Below are positions 5,629-64,000 of a stretch of DNA of 64,000 nucleotides, in pieces. Numbering within the stretch: the first letter of the stretch is position 1; each line of letters begins with the position of its first letter. Source of the DNA: Candidatus Oscillochloris fontis (GTDB lineage Bacteria; Chloroflexota; Chloroflexia; Chloroflexales; Chloroflexaceae); assembly GCF_004138135.1 (NCBI RefSeq), contig NZ_RYFD01000001.1, positions 62,001 to 126,000 of the forward strand, written 5' to 3'. Under the pieces are notes generated by a model. That model was not told where the DNA came from. It saw nothing but the letters and a program-made list of their open reading frames with translations, and made no database searches. The translations under genes and the position numbers were made by a program.

Positions 5629-7224
5629 TCACCCCCCGATCATCCTCCGCACCACCTCGCTGATCTGTATCGTAATCGGCAAGACGGTTGGCAACACCAG
5701 GGCGATCTGCTCGGCGGCCTGCTGGAGCCGCTTCAAGCTGTAGGCCACATCCTCGCGGTCGGGACGGGGCTTGGTGGCCTCGGCGACGGTCTGCTCGATC
5801 CGCTTGGCGGTCTGCTCCGCCGCCGCCGCGTGCGTGGCGGGTACCCGCTGAAGCTCGGTGCTCAGTTGATCTAGCAGCGTCTGCAACTGGGCCTTCGCCG
5901 CCGCATCCGCGTGCGGGGCCGCAGCGATGCTCTGGGTCACGTTGCTCAGGGTGGACTTGATGTTCAGCAGGGCACCGCTGAAGTTGCCGGACATCGTGAA
6001 CTGATCGCCGCTCACAAAGGTGCCCCGGCGCTTATCAATACTCCCCTCGGCATAATCCCCGCCCCCGGTCTCCACACGGCGCACGCTGCTCTGCGCCCCT
6101 GGCCCAATGGCGATCCCCGTACCCCGAATGTCGCCGGTGGTGATCGTATCGCCGCCCACCACATCACCAATCGAGATGTCGCCATACTGCCCGCCATCGC
6201 CAAAGTGTACCCCGCCCTGCTGCCTGCGCTGATCCACGTTGACGTTGCCGTGAACATCACCGGCAATCGCCGCGCCGACCTGGGCGTTCCCACTGATGCG
6301 TTGCTGGTGCTGGCGCTGACGCAGCACCACCTGGCTGTAGGCCGGGTTGACCTCGCGTACAGCGGTGTCTTCGGGGGGCGAACTGGAGGCATCGAATGTG
6401 CCGAGGGTGGATGCGCCCCGGTAGAGCGCCACCGCGAACGGCCCGACGCCTTTGAGGATGGTCAGTTCTGGTTCCTGCTTCTCGCCATAGTGCTTGCGTG
6501 TCGCCACAGAGATCTGGCGCGTGACGCTCTCCTCAAGCGTGAAGTAGAGATGGGTATAGAGGTCGAAAATACTGATATAGCCATGGTTACTCACGATCCC
6601 CTTGCCCTGGAGGCCATCCACCAGCGCCTGGGTGAAGAGCGTGAGCGGGCCGGGGCCGATGAAGGCGTACTGGTTCTCACGGCACGCACTGATGATCACC
6701 CGCCCCTCGCCGGTGCCCAGCAGCGCCGCAGCGACGGGCGGCGGCATGGGGTTGCCGGTTGGTGGGGCATCCCCGGCGGCCAGAACGGGCGAGATTTCAC
6801 CGGCGTGGCAGGCATTGACGATCAGCACCAGCCGCTTGGCCGGGATCGCCCGCAACTTCGCAATCAACTCGGCTTCGCGCACCCCCGTACCGACCACGAC
6901 CTTCTTCCCGTCCATGCGGGTATCGTGGGTGGTCAGGTAGTAGCCATCATCGCCATATTCGCCATGGCCTGCATAGAAGATGAAGACCGTATCATCCGCA
7001 TTCACCCGCGTCAACCCATCCAACGCAGCTAGAATCCCCGCACGGCTCGCGTCCGTATTGCTGAGCAGCGCCACCTGTTCCGAGGGGTAGCCACACAACT
7101 GCGGATCGCGCAGCACCGTCGCCACACTCGTGGCATCAGTGGCCGTGATCGGCACATTGAAGCGCGGCACATGGGCATACGTACCAACACCGATAACGAG
7201 GGCGTGGGCAGTGGAGAAGGGCAT
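5629..7224 (-). CDS. Caspase-fold (peptidase C14/metacaspase-like) protein with Gly-Asp repeats and helical tail
   Basis: 531 aa from ATG 7224, chosen because AGGAG lies 7 bases upstream. The N-terminal caspase domain (about 1-260) opens with ALVIGVGTY and has the catalytic dyad His87 (FYAGHGEY) and Cys139 (VNACHAGE). Next comes a linker and a Gly/Asp-rich region (about 325-430) with recurring GD(I/V) units such as GDISIGDVVGGDTITTGDI (short beta-strand turns, probably a small beta-solenoid). The last 100 residues are an amphipathic helical bundle ending in a hydrophobic LVLPTVLPITIQI stretch. Bacterial caspase-like proteases with such modules occur in signalling and conflict (cell-suicide) systems. 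Substrate unknown; both catalytic residues are intact, so activity is likely. Confidence 0.85.
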   Translation of the reverse strand: MPFSTAHALVIGVGTYAHVPRFNVPITATDATSVATVLRDPQLCGYPSEQVALLSNTDASRAGILAALDGLTRVNADDTVFIFYAGHGEYGDDGYYLTTHDTRMDGKKVVVGTGVREAELIAKLRAIPAKRLVLIVNACHAGEISPVLAAGDAPPTGNPMPPPVAAALLGTGEGRVIISACRENQYAFIGPGPLTLFTQALVDGLQGKGIVSNHGYISIFDLYTHLYFTLEESVTRQISVATRKHYGEKQEPELTILKGVGPFAVALYRGASTLGTFDASSSPPEDTAVREVNPAYSQVVLRQRQHQQRISGNAQVGAAIAGDVHGNVNVDQRRQQGGVHFGDGGQYGDISIGDVVGGDTITTGDIRGTGIAIGPGAQSSVRRVETGGGDYAEGSIDKRRGTFVSGDQFTMSGNFSGALLNIKSTLSNVTQSIAAAPHADAAAKAQLQTLLDQLSTELQRVPATHAAAAEQTAKRIEQTVAEATKPRPDREDVAYSLKRLQQAAEQIALVLPTVLPITIQISEVVRRMIGG

Positions 7225-7299
7225 AGGGCAACTCCTACGCATACAAAACGGGTGTAGATCTATTCGCATTATAGCAAGAGGATGTGTAAAAATCCGGGT

Positions 7300-7346
7300 G
7301 ACACACAAAGGAGCGAGGGCATTTCGCCCTCGCTCCTTTGTGTGTC
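7300..7346. terminator. Perfect 21-bp stem-loop
   Basis: Arm 7300-7320 pairs perfectly with 7326-7346 around a 5-base loop. It lies downstream of the PepSY gene and upstream of the caspase-like gene, both on the minus strand. It could end transcription of the former, although no clear U-tract follows. Confidence 0.5.
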
Positions 7347-7500: not shown

Positions 7501-7836
7501 TCACCCCCCCGCCGACACCTCACAACTGATCGGCCCGCGTGCCGTATTCGCCACCACCCGCCCCGTCTCCGCGTCCACGTAAATCCGCCCGGTGTCCAGC
7601 GTCACTTCATAGACCATCATCCCCGCATAGCTCACCAAGACGGGCTGGCCTAAGACCCGCGCATCTGGCTCGTGCGAGAGGGCGATTGAACTCGCATTCT
7701 TGTAGGAGATCGGGTATTCCTTCAACTGAACCACGCTTGAAAAGTTCGCGTAGAGGATCGAAATCCCGTCGCTCACAAAGACCAAGGTTATCGCGATCAT
7801 CATTGCGAGAAAGGTGCGGGTGGTGCGCTGGCGCAT
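7501..7836 (-). CDS. Small anchored PepSY-domain protein A
   Basis: 111 aa with one N-terminal membrane segment (about 9-28). The exported part ends with a PepSY signature, VYEVTLDTGRIYVDAETGRVV (core YEVTLDTGRIYVD). AGGAG lies 8 bases before ATG 7836. PepSY domains are extracytoplasmic and are thought to inhibit proteases or sense the environment. It is a paralogue of the next gene upstream, with which it shares the core almost residue for residue, so the pair arose by duplication. Confidence 0.75.
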   Translation of the reverse strand: MRQRTTRTFLAMMIAITLVFVSDGISILYANFSSVVQLKEYPISYKNASSIALSHEPDARVLGQPVLVSYAGMMVYEVTLDTGRIYVDAETGRVVANTARGPISCEVSAGG

Positions 7837-8085: not shown

Positions 8086-8538
8086 TTAGTCGTCGTCGTC
8101 ATGCTCATCGTCATCATCATCACCCTCGCCGCCGCCATTGGTGTTGGTGGTGCTGCTATTGGGCACGGTGCTCGCCACTACTTGGCCGCTGGTTGCATCA
8201 ACATAGACCATCCCTGTATCCAGTGTCACCTCGTAGACCGTTGCGCCCTGGTAGGTCACAATGACTGGCGTGCCCTGAAGGGTCGTACCGGGTGCAGTGG
8301 CAAGGGCAATACTCCCCGCCTGATCCGCAGTGACCGCGTAGCTGTTTGAAGGTACCGAAGTGGCATTTATTACCGGGGCGGTGGCTTGGGTTGTGGGGAT
8401 GATAGCCGGGGCAACACTGGTGGGTTGGGTGGTGGTTGGGGCTGTACGACTCCCTTGGTTCGAGATCACCACTCCAATCACGATCAGCACTAGTGCGACC
8501 CCAACGGCGACGATGGTACGGCTTGAACGGGCATTCAT
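8086..8538 (-). CDS. Anchored PepSY-domain protein B with acidic tail
   Basis: 150 aa. An N-terminal membrane anchor (about 8-25) is followed by a Thr/Pro-rich spacer (30-70), a PepSY domain with VYEVTLDTGMVYVDATSGQVV (core YEVTLDTGMVYVD), and a C-terminal tail GEGDDDDDEHDDDD that could bind cations. It is paralogous to the 111-aa protein downstream on the same strand; only this copy has the spacer and the acid tail. Exact role unknown. Confidence 0.75.
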   Translation of the reverse strand: MNARSSRTIVAVGVALVLIVIGVVISNQGSRTAPTTTQPTSVAPAIIPTTQATAPVINATSVPSNSYAVTADQAGSIALATAPGTTLQGTPVIVTYQGATVYEVTLDTGMVYVDATSGQVVASTVPNSSTTNTNGGGEGDDDDDEHDDDD

Positions 8539-8761: not shown

Positions 8762-9019
8762 ATGAGCATAGATCGTCGCTCGATCTTTTTTGATCTCACC
8801 CGTGCCGAAGTTTTGGCGCGTGGGTGTGTGCAGCCCGATGCTGGCCGTTGTGTGCAGTGTGGTATCTGTAGCCACAACTGCCCACTTGGCTTGGATGTGC
8901 GGGCTTATGCATGGCGCGGCATACCGATCACCGATAGCCAATGCCTTACCTGCGGCCAGTGTGTGGCCCGCTGCCCGCGTGGAGCGTTGGAGTTTGTGCC
9001 GTTACGCCCAGAGACATAG
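8762..9019 (+). CDS. 2x[4Fe-4S] ferredoxin
   Basis: 85 aa. Two complete cluster motifs are visible: C30-x2-C33-x2-C36-x3-C40-P and C61-x2-C64-x2-C67-x3-C71-P. ATG 8762 is preferred because GAGG lies 6 bases upstream; ATG 8750 is possible. It heads a four-gene redox run (FAD oxidoreductase, cytochrome b, multiheme cytochrome c) and is probably the soluble electron carrier or the Fe-S subunit of that complex. Confidence 0.9.
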   Translation: MSIDRRSIFFDLTRAEVLARGCVQPDAGRCVQCGICSHNCPLGLDVRAYAWRGIPITDSQCLTCGQCVARCPRGALEFVPLRPET

Positions 9020-9036
9020 AAGTTAAGGATCGCCCC

Positions 9037-10365
9037 ATGGCGACACAGTATGTAATTGTTGGATCAGGCGTGGCGGGCGTCTCCGCCGCTGAAGTGTTGC
9101 GTACCCGTGCCCCCCAAGCTCAAGTCACGCTGATCAGTGCCGAAGCTGCCGGTTTCTATTCGCGCCCTGGTTTGGCCTACTACCTGAATGGTCGTGTTCC
9201 AGAGCGCCAATTGATCCTGCGTTCCCCGGCTAGCCTGCGGGATCTGGGGGTGCGTTGGGTGCAGGCCCGCGTTAACCAGATCAATGTCGCCCAACGCCGC
9301 CTCAAACTGGCTGATGGCCAGGAGATCGCCTATGACCGGCTCTTATTGGCGACTGGATCGCGGGCGGTTCCCGCCGATATGTCTGGATCGGAGTTGGAGG
9401 GGGTCTGTTATCTCGATACGCTCGATGATGCCCGCCATTTAGTGCAACGGGCGCGGCGTGCCAAAACCGCCGTCGTTGTCGGCGGTGGGATCACCGCGCT
9501 CGAACTCGCTGAAGGACTGCATGCGCGTGGGGTGCATGTCCACTACCTCCTGCGTGGCGACCGGTACTGGGCTAATCTGTTGGATGCCGAGGAATCGCGT
9601 CTGGTTGAAGATCGGTTGCGTGCCGATGGCATCAGTATCCACTACCAGACCCGTATCCGCCAGGTGTTGGGCACACGCGGCAAGCTCGAAGCCATCGAGA
9701 CTGAAACCGGGGAACGCATCGCATGCCAGATCTTGGCGGTGGCGATTGGTACCCGCCCCCAGATCGATCTCGCCCGCAACGCGGGTATCAAGGTGGATCG
9801 CGGCATCCTCACCGATACGCATATGGTGACGAGTGTCCCCGACATCCTCGCCGCCGGAGATGCGGCCCAGGTCTATGATCCTGTACTCGGCCAAGCTACC
9901 CTCGACACCCTCTGGCCGACGGCGCGTAACCACGGCTATGCTGCGGCCCACACTATGCTGGGTGCTCCGCAGCCCTATCAGCGCCATGTAGCCATGAATG
10001 TGACTCTGTTGGCCGGGATTCCGACCACGATCATCGGGGCGGTGGGCAGTGGCAGTGATACCGATCTGGTAACGATTGCGCGTGGCGACAGCGAGACATG
10101 GCGCCATGCCCATGCCAGTTGGGTGGTGGTGGAGCGCCACGCCGTGAATCGCATCCGTCTGATGCTGGGCGAACGCACGATCAGCGGTGCGGTACTGATG
10201 GGCGATCAGAGTCTTTCGCGCACGATCCAGCGTTTGATCCGCGCCCAAGCCGACATCAGCCCGATTCGTGCCGCGCTCATGCAGGAGAGCCATGCCTCTC
10301 CCAGCCTGCTTACCGATTTTGCTGCCTCCTTGGAGCATCTCTATGGCAACCACGCCACACGTTGA
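9037..10365 (+). CDS. FAD-dependent pyridine nucleotide-disulfide oxidoreductase
   Basis: 442 aa from ATG 9037 (AAGGAT upstream), 17 bases after the ferredoxin. The FAD-binding GxGxxG is at the N-terminus (VIVGSGVAGVSAAE). A second dinucleotide fold, VVVGGGITALELAEG, binds NAD(P)H, and an ATGSR and a late ILAAGDAAQ motif bind the flavin. There is no CxxxxC redox pair, so it resembles NirB/rubredoxin-reductase-like NADH:acceptor enzymes. The likely job is to move electrons between NAD(P)H and the ferredoxin or the membrane cytochrome encoded next. It overlaps the cytochrome b gene by 23 bases. Confidence 0.88.
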   Translation: MATQYVIVGSGVAGVSAAEVLRTRAPQAQVTLISAEAAGFYSRPGLAYYLNGRVPERQLILRSPASLRDLGVRWVQARVNQINVAQRRLKLADGQEIAYDRLLLATGSRAVPADMSGSELEGVCYLDTLDDARHLVQRARRAKTAVVVGGGITALELAEGLHARGVHVHYLLRGDRYWANLLDAEESRLVEDRLRADGISIHYQTRIRQVLGTRGKLEAIETETGERIACQILAVAIGTRPQIDLARNAGIKVDRGILTDTHMVTSVPDILAAGDAAQVYDPVLGQATLDTLWPTARNHGYAAAHTMLGAPQPYQRHVAMNVTLLAGIPTTIIGAVGSGSDTDLVTIARGDSETWRHAHASWVVVERHAVNRIRLMLGERTISGAVLMGDQSLSRTIQRLIRAQADISPIRAALMQESHASPSLLTDFAASLEHLYGNHATR

Positions 10366-11194
10366 CCCGCCTCGCCCGCTGCGCCAGACGACCTATGAGA
10401 TCGAGATCTCACTGGTGGCGCTCGGTGCCATTACGGGGCTGTACCTTTGGCTCTCACGCTTCGGAACGCCCGCTGCGAGTGGCCTCGTCGGCCACAGCAT
10501 CGGCATCATCGGTTTCGTGTTGATGTTGGCCACCGAAACGCTCTATTCCCTACGCAAACGCGCCCGCACATGGACCTATGGGCGGCTGAGTAGTTGGCTA
10601 CAGTGGCATATTGTCAGCGGGATTGTTGGTTCGTATATGGTGTTGCTCCATACGGCATGGCAGTTTCGCGGCCTCGCCGGGGTGGTGTTGCTCCTCACCG
10701 TTGTCGTCGTGCTGAGTGGCGTGGTGGGGCGCTACTTCTACACCGCCATCCCGCGCACCCTCGATGGGGCGGAACTGAGTCTTGCCGACCTGGAGACGCA
10801 ACTGGCGGCGGGCGCGGCGCGCCTAGAGATTCTCACCCGCACCCGCACATCGGGCGAGCCGGCCCCCGCCCTGGAGTTGCCAGCATTGGCGACGCCCCAG
10901 GGTGGCCCCTTGGCAAGTGTCTTAGTCCGGCCCTTGATCACCTGGCGGGATCGGGCCGCCCTCGAACGCGCCATGGGACAGCTTGGTAGTCAGGACCAAG
11001 CCACCGCGAGTGAGTTGCGCCGCATCATGCAGGAACGCCAGCGTCTACTGCGCCAGATCGAACGCCTGGATATGGCTCGCCGCTTGTTAGCCCTTTGGCA
11101 TACTGTCCATGTGCCGCTCGGTGTGGCGCTCTTCATTATGGCCTTTGTGCATGTTGGCGGGGCCATGTACTACGCAACCCTGTTGCGTCTTTAA
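10343..11194 (+). CDS. Membrane cytochrome b-like protein
   Basis: 283 aa. Four or five hydrophobic helices. Histidines in or near helices (WHIVSG, LLHTAW, WHTVHVPLG, AFVHVGG) give two plausible heme-b ligand pairs, as in cytochrome b561/FdnI-type proteins. A soluble, partly helical loop (about 135-245) interrupts the helices. ATG 10343 overlaps the FAD oxidoreductase gene by 23 bases, and the gene ends 9 bases before the multiheme cytochrome, so the proteins probably form one complex. The exact family is not certain. Confidence 0.75.
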   Translation: MATTPHVDPPRPLRQTTYEIEISLVALGAITGLYLWLSRFGTPAASGLVGHSIGIIGFVLMLATETLYSLRKRARTWTYGRLSSWLQWHIVSGIVGSYMVLLHTAWQFRGLAGVVLLLTVVVVLSGVVGRYFYTAIPRTLDGAELSLADLETQLAAGAARLEILTRTRTSGEPAPALELPALATPQGGPLASVLVRPLITWRDRAALERAMGQLGSQDQATASELRRIMQERQRLLRQIERLDMARRLLALWHTVHVPLGVALFIMAFVHVGGAMYYATLLRL

Positions 11195-11203
11195 GAGACT
11201 ATT

Positions 11204-12451
11204 ATGAACCGCCTTGGCTGCCTCACGCCCTTTGGGATTGGTGCCGGGATCATTACCATCATTGGCTTGGTCGTCATTGGCTGGTTCAGTGGTGGTGCGA
11301 TGTTTAGCCCTGGCCCCCTGAGTACACAACAGCGTAACGGAACCCCCCTTGGGGGTGTCGCCTCGCACGCCGCGATTGGTGGCGATTGTGGAGCGTGCCA
11401 TACGGCTCCCTGGGAGGGGCGCACCATGGCTGCTGCATGTTTGGCGTGTCATAGCGACATCCAGAGTCAAATCGGCAATCCAGCGACGCTCCACGGGGCG
11501 CTTCCCGATGCCAACGTGTGTATGGGTTGCCACGTTGAGCATCGCGGCGAGTCGGCCAGCCTCACCGATGCGCCGCTGAATGAGTTCCCGCATGCGCAAC
11601 TCGGTTTCTCGCTCGCGGCGCACCAGTTCACAGCGGGTGGGCAAGCCTTTGCCTGCGCTGATTGCCATACCCCGCTCAACCAGAATCCGCGCCCATTCAA
11701 TGCCTATGATGCCGCTGCGGTGGATTGTATCGGCTGCCATACCCAGGATCAGCCCGCCTTTATGCCGCAACATCAGGCCGATTTTGGAACAACCTGCCTG
11801 GATTGCCACGATGGGGTGGATCGCTATAGAAACTTCGACCATGCCAGCCTGCGTTTTCCCTTAGAAGGGCTGCACCAGCAGGTTGAATGTGGCATGTGCC
11901 ATACCAATACCCGCCATCCTGAGCAGTTTGCCACCACTGCCGATACCTGCCTCGCCTGCCACCATGAAGATGACGTGCATCAGGGGAGTTACGGCACTGA
12001 TTGTGCGGCCTGTCATACCCCCTCAGGCTGGGCGCAGGTGACGTTTGACCATAGCCGCACAGCCTTCCCGCTGACTGGCGCACACATCCAACTGGAATGT
12101 GCCGCTTGCCACCAGAACCAGATCTATCAAGGCACCCCCACCACCTGTGTGGGTTGCCACGCTGAACCGCAGGAACACTTCGGTCAGTTTGGTACCGACT
12201 GTGCGAGTTGCCATGTGACCAGCAGTTGGAAGAATGTGATCTTTGATCATACCTTCCCGCTCAATCATGGTGGTGAAGGCCAGATCGCCTGCGCGACCTG
12301 CCACACCAACCCACCCCCCAACCAGTACACGACCTACACCTGCTACAACTGCCACGCGCATAGCGAAGCCAAGGTACGTGCCGAGCACCTAGAAGAGGGG
12401 ATTACGAACTACCAGGATTGTATGCGTTGCCACCCGGATGGGCGCGAGTAG
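11204..12451 (+). CDS. Membrane-anchored 15-heme c-type cytochrome
   Basis: 415 aa. A single N-terminal membrane segment (about 9-28) is followed by an exported domain with fifteen CxxCH heme-c attachment motifs and many extra histidines that can serve as distal ligands. Repeats of the C-x2-CH..FDH..F(P) type indicate cytochrome c7/c3-like modules. Together with the ferredoxin, NAD(P)H oxidoreductase and cytochrome b it could carry electrons from the cytoplasm across the membrane to an external acceptor, or in reverse. The acceptor cannot be read from the sequence. Confidence 0.9.
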   Translation: MNRLGCLTPFGIGAGIITIIGLVVIGWFSGGAMFSPGPLSTQQRNGTPLGGVASHAAIGGDCGACHTAPWEGRTMAAACLACHSDIQSQIGNPATLHGALPDANVCMGCHVEHRGESASLTDAPLNEFPHAQLGFSLAAHQFTAGGQAFACADCHTPLNQNPRPFNAYDAAAVDCIGCHTQDQPAFMPQHQADFGTTCLDCHDGVDRYRNFDHASLRFPLEGLHQQVECGMCHTNTRHPEQFATTADTCLACHHEDDVHQGSYGTDCAACHTPSGWAQVTFDHSRTAFPLTGAHIQLECAACHQNQIYQGTPTTCVGCHAEPQEHFGQFGTDCASCHVTSSWKNVIFDHTFPLNHGGEGQIACATCHTNPPPNQYTTYTCYNCHAHSEAKVRAEHLEEGITNYQDCMRCHPDGRE

Positions 12452-63064: not shown

Positions 63065-63079
63065 GAGGGGAAATATGCG

Positions 63080-64000
63080 ATGCGCTACCCGCTTATTGCC
63101 GGTTTTACCGCGCTGCTGGTACTCATAACCGCGCTGGCGATCTATACGGCGCGTGAAGAACAACGTATGCAGACCGCGCAGGCCGATCTGCGCCAGGTGG
63201 CGATCACCGATGCCTCGGTGGTCTATGTGCAATATTGCGCCACCTGCCACGGGGCGACGGGTGAGGGGATTGGGGCCACGCCGCCGCTCGATAATGAGGG
63301 GGTGCGCGGCATGGATTACGACACGCTCTTCAAGACGATAGCACGCGGGCGCTATGCTACCGCGATGACCGGCTGGCATGTGGATGAGGGTGGCATGCTC
63401 ACCACCTATGAGATTGACCAGTTGGTGGCGCTGTTGCGCTATGGCGAGTGGCCGCAGGTGCGCGAGCTGGCCGCGCAACAGGGGATGATCCCGGTCAGTC
63501 TGGCGGCACCCGAAGTGGCCGCCGAGCAGATCGCGGCGATCAGTGCGCTGGGGCCAGAAGGCAGTATCTGGGCCAACGGGCTGAACCTGTATGCCCAGAA
63601 CTGTACCACTTGCCACGGGGCGACGGGAGAGGGAAGCAGCCTCGCGGTGGCGCTGAACACCCCAGAGCTACGCAGCCAGGACGCAGCAACGATCACGCGC
63701 ACCATCACTGAGGGCGTGCCGGGAACGATGATGGCGGCGTGGAACAAGGCGCTGCAACCAGAGGAGATCAGTGCGCTTGCTGAGTTCCTGCGGCACTGGG
63801 ATCAGGTCGAAGCTGCCGGAATTGCGCTGAGCGCCCCCACGATTGAACAGATCGATCTCGGTGACGCCGAGGCAGTCTTGGCGCTGGGCGAGCGGCTCTT
63901 CACCACCACCTGCACCACCTGTCACGGCGAGAACGGATCGGGCGGGGTTGGGCCAGCGATCAACAGTCAGCAGTTCCTCAGCCGCAAAGATGATGCTGCG
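63080..64000 (+). CDS. Multi-domain c-type cytochrome (3' end outside window)
   Basis: The frame is open to the window end (307 codons). An N-terminal helix (about 5-22) anchors it; then three cytochrome c domains are visible, each with a CxxCH motif (CATCH, CTTCH, CTTCH) and a later Met-type region such as GTMMAAW. It accepts electrons from the Rieske protein as the third subunit of the complex. Starts 15 bases after the Rieske gene. Confidence 0.93.
   Translation, partial: MRYPLIAGFTALLVLITALAIYTAREEQRMQTAQADLRQVAITDASVVYVQYCATCHGATGEGIGATPPLDNEGVRGMDYDTLFKTIARGRYATAMTGWHVDEGGMLTTYEIDQLVALLRYGEWPQVRELAAQQGMIPVSLAAPEVAAEQIAAISALGPEGSIWANGLNLYAQNCTTCHGATGEGSSLAVALNTPELRSQDAATITRTITEGVPGTMMAAWNKALQPEEISALAEFLRHWDQVEAAGIALSAPTIEQIDLGDAEAVLALGERLFTTTCTTCHGENGSGGVGPAINSQQFLSRKDDAA

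Follow-up and report, generated by a model that had tools for sequence, protein, structure and literature searches.

How might cytoplasmic NAD(P)H and an iron–sulfur protein be connected to hemes outside the cell, and in which direction would the electrons run? This question is raised by four neighboring genes in a 64,000-nucleotide stretch of Candidatus Oscillochloris fontis (assembly GCF_004138135.1, contig NZ_RYFD01000001.1, positions 62,001 to 126,000; hereafter called the “window”). The host, a green filamentous bacterium that is photosynthetic, has a genome of 4.46 Mb and belongs to the Chloroflexota; its nearest named relatives are Oscillochloris, Chloroploca and Viridilinea. The four genes encode a ferredoxin-like subunit, a flavoprotein, a membrane cytochrome b and a multiheme cytochrome (MHC). 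We propose that they probably constitute one membrane module, which would export cytoplasmic reducing equivalents from NADPH to an external acceptor through the MHC.

8762..9019, + strand: ferredoxin-like subunit gene (open reading frame, 85 residues)
9037..10365, + strand: flavin adenine dinucleotide (FAD)/NAD(P)H oxidoreductase gene (open reading frame, 442 residues)
10343..11194, + strand: gene of the putative di-heme membrane cytochrome b, of an unnamed family (open reading frame, 283 residues)
11204..12451, + strand: gene of the 15-heme c3/c7-type cytochrome, the MHC (open reading frame, 415 residues)

Gene linkage across the Chloroflexota

The open reading frames and the distances between them (a 17-base gap, a 23-base overlap and a 9-base gap) agree with the gene content, order and spacing described in the original prediction, and the overlap of the flavoprotein and cytochrome b genes recurs in relatives. 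In the three larger genes, the ratio of nonsynonymous to synonymous substitution rates (dN/dS) is about 0.1–0.17 against two congeneric genomes, and the cluster genes are therefore under purifying selection. Promoter and terminator scans returned nothing exceeding chance.

Using the cytochrome b as the bait, we surveyed the gene neighborhoods in 400 sampled Chloroflexota genomes. A homologue is present in 56 of them, and in five of the six species of the genus, and the kinds of neighboring genes are the same in nearly all of the examined loci. Counting distinct loci, we defined the MHC clade, which contains the window, as families f1, f13, f27, f83 and f19. Within this clade, an MHC with 8 to 33 hemes adjoins the cytochrome b in 20/20 loci with readable downstream DNA, spread over the five families, and the ferredoxin and flavoprotein adjoin it in 20 of the 22 loci. 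The two deviating loci are L054, where the ferredoxin was not detected, and L057, which consists of the cytochrome b and an 8-heme protein only. All four genes occur together in at least four Chloroflexota families, and the fifth has the cytochrome b with the MHC. Co-conservation had been set beforehand as the point on which the original prediction could fall, and these counts sustain it. Moreover, locus L050 retains all four genes in a changed order, and this linkage through reordering argues for selection on the linkage itself. In L054 and L055, the flavoprotein and/or MHC genes are broken into several frames, which suggests sequencing frameshifts or decay.

The distances of the flavoprotein, cytochrome b and MHC correlate across 15 loci (Mantel r 0.83, 0.85 and 0.68; reached in 0 of 2000 permutations), as joint inheritance would produce. 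The predicted connection from NAD(P)H and an iron–sulfur protein to external hemes is thus upheld as a functional unit, by the co-conservation and the correlated distances; the four products may also assemble into a physical complex. In a sister group (families f24, f40 and f43), the flavoprotein, ferredoxin and cytochrome b are found together in 13/13 loci with no MHC. These MHC-less operons, which possibly represent a NADPH-oxidase-like form, encode flavoproteins of 490–650 residues and lie mostly in large Chloroflexota genomes (L058–L065, L067, L069 and L076–L078).

Cofactor sites and heme ligands

Which residues would carry the electrons? The ferredoxin subunit matches Pfam Fer4_9 (3.2e-10) and contains two CxxCxxCxxxC [4Fe-4S] motifs, CVQCGICSHNCP and CLTCGQCVARCP. 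The flavoprotein matches Pyr_redox_2 (3.9e-55) and resembles NirB, PadH and the ferredoxin reductases. Its nearest solved chain is 8c0z_E, the ferredoxin:NADH oxidoreductase-like subunit of an aldehyde oxidoreductase, and its closest solved relatives also include ferredoxin/rubredoxin reductases. For PadH, the phenylglyoxylate dehydrogenase flavoprotein, it scores 179.6 bits and falls far below the NCBIfam equivalog cut-off of 475. The position following the second Rossmann strand bears on the choice of the cofactor.

9553..9555, + strand: codon of Arg173 of the flavoprotein, following Leu172, the site of the Glu in NADH enzymes

While chains 8c0z and 3fg2 have a glutamate after this strand, an aliphatic residue (Leu, Val, Ile or Met) followed by arginine occupies positions 172–173 in 32/32 of the homologues listed. 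An aliphatic residue and then arginine is the pattern of NADPH enzymes, such as glutathione reductase. NADPH is therefore likelier than NADH as the cofactor, because an invariant Arg173 follows an aliphatic residue at the site of the NADH-type Glu.

The hydropathy profile of the cytochrome b shows at least four hydrophobic segments; its sequence, together with a weak model, suggests five membrane helices. The Pfam profile search accepted no family for it: the scores were 11.6 bits for the ferric reductases (PF01794; gathering score, 28) and 14.8 bits for the cytochrome b561/Ni-hydrogenase cytochrome b family (PF01292, the Mco type; 30.1). Among 15 members of the cytochrome b family, weak matches to cytochrome b561 appear in seven (best, 5.5e-05) and to ferric reductase in five (best, 0.0061). 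A profile search of solved structures yielded weak or artefactual matches, mostly to coiled or fusion-tag regions, and one plausible match, to the “putative ferric reductase” 5o0t (E 0.055).

The putative transmembrane residues His89, His103, His256 and His270 are invariant in 33/33 Chloroflexota homologues, and the pairs His89/His103 and His256/His270 are each spaced by 14 residues, in agreement with the spacing of about 13–14 in NADPH oxidases and ferric reductases. This 14+14 spacing is typical of di-heme four-helix cytochromes b. We propose that His89/His256 and His103/His270 are the axial ligands of two b hemes. The positively charged stretch SLRKRAR follows the second helix, and this suggests a position near the cytoplasm for His89/His256 and near the outside for His103/His270. 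The motifs GH..G, L..H-x13-H and WH..H.P, with a further histidine 14 residues after the second, provide a sequence handle for the class. Two additional histidines, His51 and His253, are present in 20/20 of the MHC-linked forms and 0/13 of the MHC-less forms.

The MHC contains exactly 15 CXXCH motifs in its 415 residues. Only one other frame in the window has two or more such motifs, and since it has three, the 15 are not a product of chance. The protein belongs to Pfam Cytochrome_C7 (PF14522; 3.6e-21, 75.2 bits against a cut-off of 24.8, seven stretches). A Pfam C7 search of its own genome recovered another locus (G000:C37, a 255-residue frame) and missed the window MHC; absence in such family scans was hence not counted as evidence.

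Is the MHC a wire or a reductase? The motif histidines are invariant (15/15) among eight homologues, and the distal histidines invariant in the same eight number exactly 15 (residues 55, 97, 113, 130, 140, 190, 213, 224, 259, 283, 294, 325, 349, 355 and 395), with three more that vary. As the 15 invariant distal histidines match the 15 hemes, bis-His ligation of all the hemes is the simplest interpretation, and it would make the protein a wire with no catalytic site. By sequence, the histidines suffice to leave no heme open, in contrast to the open catalytic heme of the periplasmic reductase NrfA, and NrfA-type chains match at E 0.3 or worse. The scores for the hexadecaheme HmcA (NF045713; 35.8 bits against an equivalog cut-off of 400), the DmsE-type decahemes (30.2 against a subfamily cut-off of 192.2) and the OmcA/MtrC-type decahemes (17.8 against 209.3) all fall short, and the MHC stands outside the described reductase families tested; membership in a described periplasmic reductase family had been the other point on which the original prediction could fall. 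A solved-structure profile search with the MHC alignment gave no matches.

11222..11302, + strand: N-terminal membrane anchor of the MHC (hydrophobic segment, residues 7–25)
11978..12178, + strand: triheme (c7-like) repeat region of the MHC, approximate limits, from CXXCH spacings across homologues

The anchor is flanked by the conserved motifs RLGCLTPFG and MFSPGxL, before and after it, respectively. The triheme unit has a CXXCH spacing of 32/16/18, and its copy number accounts for the 15, 18, 21, 30 and 33 hemes in relatives. The MHC of L005 carries a triheme insertion of 67 residues, and two MHC genes stand in tandem in L009 and in the f13 loci L074 and L075.

The electron path and its alternatives

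How would electrons traverse the module? NADPH (less likely NADH) would reduce the FAD on the 442-residue flavoprotein, and the FAD would pass electrons, one at a time, to the small ferredoxin subunit with its two [4Fe-4S] clusters. The two b hemes of the cytochrome b would receive them next, first bN (His89/His256) and then bP (His103/His270). At the outer face, the electrons would cross into the bis-His hemes of the anchored 15-heme cytochrome and finally reach an external acceptor, which may be Fe(III), humics, a partner cell or a further cytochrome at the surface. The layout would be that of a NADPH oxidase or transmembrane ferric reductase extended by a multiheme antenna, and the module could work without the quinone pool. 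Since the Chloroflexota are thought to be monoderm, it would also require no porin. Provided that the c hemes have potentials in the range usual for c3/c7 cytochromes, outward flow would be downhill, and the inside-negative membrane potential would aid it. The cell could then dump NADPH, or set its redox state, directly. Anaerolineales genomes encode large MHCs with variable heme numbers and lack porin–cytochrome complexes (PMC7399161). In the Chloroflexota, large MHCs are known and their electron source is not, and the cluster provides genes with which electron exchange can be tested there. Ardenticatena maritima, a Chloroflexota isolate regarded as monoderm, performs both anodic and cathodic transfer (PMC5808234), although nothing ties it to the window operon.

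Could the cytochrome b instead exchange electrons with menaquinone? The cluster would then act as a menaquinol:cytochrome c oxidoreductase or a NAD(P)H:menaquinone oxidoreductase, and the MHC would form a branch, as with Geobacter CbcL and CbcBA. The Geobacter inner-membrane routes to MHCs begin with menaquinol (PMC12307469), and the conserved extra His51 and His253 could serve a quinone or proton site. However, the flavoprotein and ferredoxin, superfluous for a simple quinol oxidase, are kept in both the MHC clade (20/22 loci) and the MHC-less group (13/13), and we consider the quinone link unlikely. The direction raises a further doubt, since the original prediction allowed for reverse flow as well as export: electrons from Fe(II), reduced humics or a partner cell might pass through the MHC to NADP+ or ferredoxin for autotrophy. 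The host has type-II reaction-centre genes (two tandem Photo_RC matches), and phototrophs of this kind must obtain reductant to fix CO2; the cathodic transfer of Ardenticatena (PMC5808234) also fits. Inward flow to NADP+ would nevertheless have to climb in potential and to work against a membrane potential that is negative inside. No subunit that could supply the energy is evident, as Pfam detected no Rnf-like or other ion-pump subunit among the four genes, and the same operon occurs in several further Chloroflexota families. Thus, of the two directions that had been allowed, export is the likelier and inward flow appears improbable. Equally doubtful is an assimilatory or detoxifying surface reductase of iron or copper in place of bulk electron export. 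Several proteobacterial homologues carry the annotation “iron reductase” and have copper-resistance genes as neighbors, and the MHC-less sister form resembles a plain transmembrane NADPH oxidase/ferric reductase, but 15 to 33 hemes are more than a simple metal reductase requires, and no metal-transport gene was recognised adjoining the window operon.

Several points weigh against the NADPH-to-MHC export module that we favor. The apparent preference for NADPH hangs on the single position Arg173, and the cytochrome b may have a quinone site. The MHC-less sister clade means that the core works with another acceptor, so that the MHC is not obligatory. The AlphaFold2 models of the cytochrome b and the MHC are of low confidence, with predicted local distance difference test (pLDDT) scores of 55 and 42, respectively. 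Furthermore, the correlation of His51/His253 with the MHC is essentially one phylogenetic split on the tree, and both residues are absent from proteobacterial homologues whose partners have seven hemes; on these two counts, the pair was dropped as a general MHC-docking signature.

Elsewhere in the window, 5629-7308 (-) encodes a 559-residue caspase-fold protein (Peptidase_C14, 1.7e-14) with a Gly/Asp-rich middle, of a type that occurs in conflict or signalling systems of bacteria. At 7501-7836 (-) and 8086-8538 (-), two small PepSY-like membrane proteins are encoded side by side; they have similar ends, VYEVTLDTG.(I/V)YVDA..G.VVA, apparently through a local duplication, and the second has an Asp-rich tail. 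The frame at 63065-64000 (+), open at the window end, has an N-terminal membrane segment and three cytochrome c (cbb3-III-like) CXXCH domains, which are not of the c7 type.

Homologues in other phyla and known systems

Outside the Chloroflexota, the cytochrome b homologues are found in plasmid loci of Bacteroidota and Proteobacteria, and the core four histidines are invariant there too. These homologues adjoin NAD(P)H/Fe-S flavoproteins of another fold, with FNR-type (ferredoxin–NADP+ reductase) FAD and 2Fe-2S parts, in Alteromonas, Sphingomonas, Spirosoma, Bradyrhizobium, Methylophaga and others. In these five genera, a c3-type or other cytochrome c gene comes next, and the usual partner is a 7-heme c3 protein. 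The gene after the cytochrome b is annotated as other than cytochrome c in Legionella, Methylocystis and Roseomonas. In Emticicia (L083 4198-14360, E. oligotrophica pEMTOL02), the cytochrome b homologue retains His51/His253, and the locus also encodes CcsA, a NAD(P)-binding protein with fused Fe-S clusters, and two cytochromes, of 23 and 40 hemes. On the Alteromonas macleodii plasmid, the genes for the FAD/2Fe-2S protein, the homologous cytochrome b and the cytochrome c3 (L086 3180-6663) lie just upstream of hydrogenase genes. Orf1, Cyt and Orf2 have been mentioned for this region (PMC3102683), and may correspond to the L086 genes.

These loci appear to form a modular class in which the cytochrome b stays constant, because its core histidines are kept while the flavoprotein and heme partners differ. 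We tentatively suggest, with somewhat less than even confidence, that transmembrane NAD(P)H:multiheme-cytochrome oxidoreductases that work independently of quinone form a class spanning several phyla, built around this one undescribed family, with at least two unrelated cytosolic NAD(P)H/Fe-S flavoprotein modules and c-heme outlets of 7–40 hemes; in Chloroflexota phototrophs, such a module would give NADPH a direct vent to the surface. As the original prediction had supposed, the combination seems to be unnamed: our literature search, from which subscription papers were largely out of reach, found no description of the cluster as a complex and no paper naming the ferredoxin/flavoprotein/cytochrome b/MHC set.

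How does the window module compare with known systems? A similar arrangement is that of the uncharacterised clusters in Alteromonas (beside the HynSL hydrogenase), a sphingomonad, and Bradyrhizobium and Spirosoma plasmids, where a homologous cytochrome b (profile E 1e-20 to 6e-30 in a 15-protein set), called “iron reductase” or hypothetical, lies between a FAD/2Fe-2S flavoprotein and a c3-type MHC; those clusters are FNR-type with 2Fe-2S, have seven hemes and lack His51/His253. In Mco of the anaerobic methanotrophic archaea (ANME), a VhtC-type cytochrome b gene is likewise followed by an MHC gene (7–11 hemes) in cells with no outer membrane, but the Mco cytochrome b is hydrogenase-type, thought to be methanophenazine-fed, and has no NAD(P)H module. 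Geobacter CbcL, CbcBA and ImcH are membrane cytochromes that feed triheme c7-type periplasmic cytochromes, whereas they are driven by menaquinol (PMC12307469) and lack a NAD(P)H flavoprotein or ferredoxin subunit. The Rnf complex with an MHC in Methanosarcina and ANME, implicated in the reduction of Fe(III) and anthraquinone-2,6-disulfonate (PMC9012536), also brings cytoplasmic ferredoxin-level electrons to an extracytoplasmic MHC. The window module has none of the RnfABCDGE subunits and no Na+ pump, and its cytochrome b and MHC differ. The described bacterial MHC export routes compared here begin at the quinol pool, and a NADPH-to-MHC module would be a different entry point. In NOX2, csNOX5 and FRE, electrons pass from cytosolic NADPH through FAD and two stacked b hemes, held by histidine pairs about 13–14 residues apart, to an outside acceptor. 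The window module would share this NADPH–FAD–two-b-heme–outside layout, while its flavoprotein is a separate protein with two dinucleotide folds (Pyr_redox_2) rather than an FNR-type fusion, and a 2[4Fe-4S] protein and a 15-heme c outlet are added.

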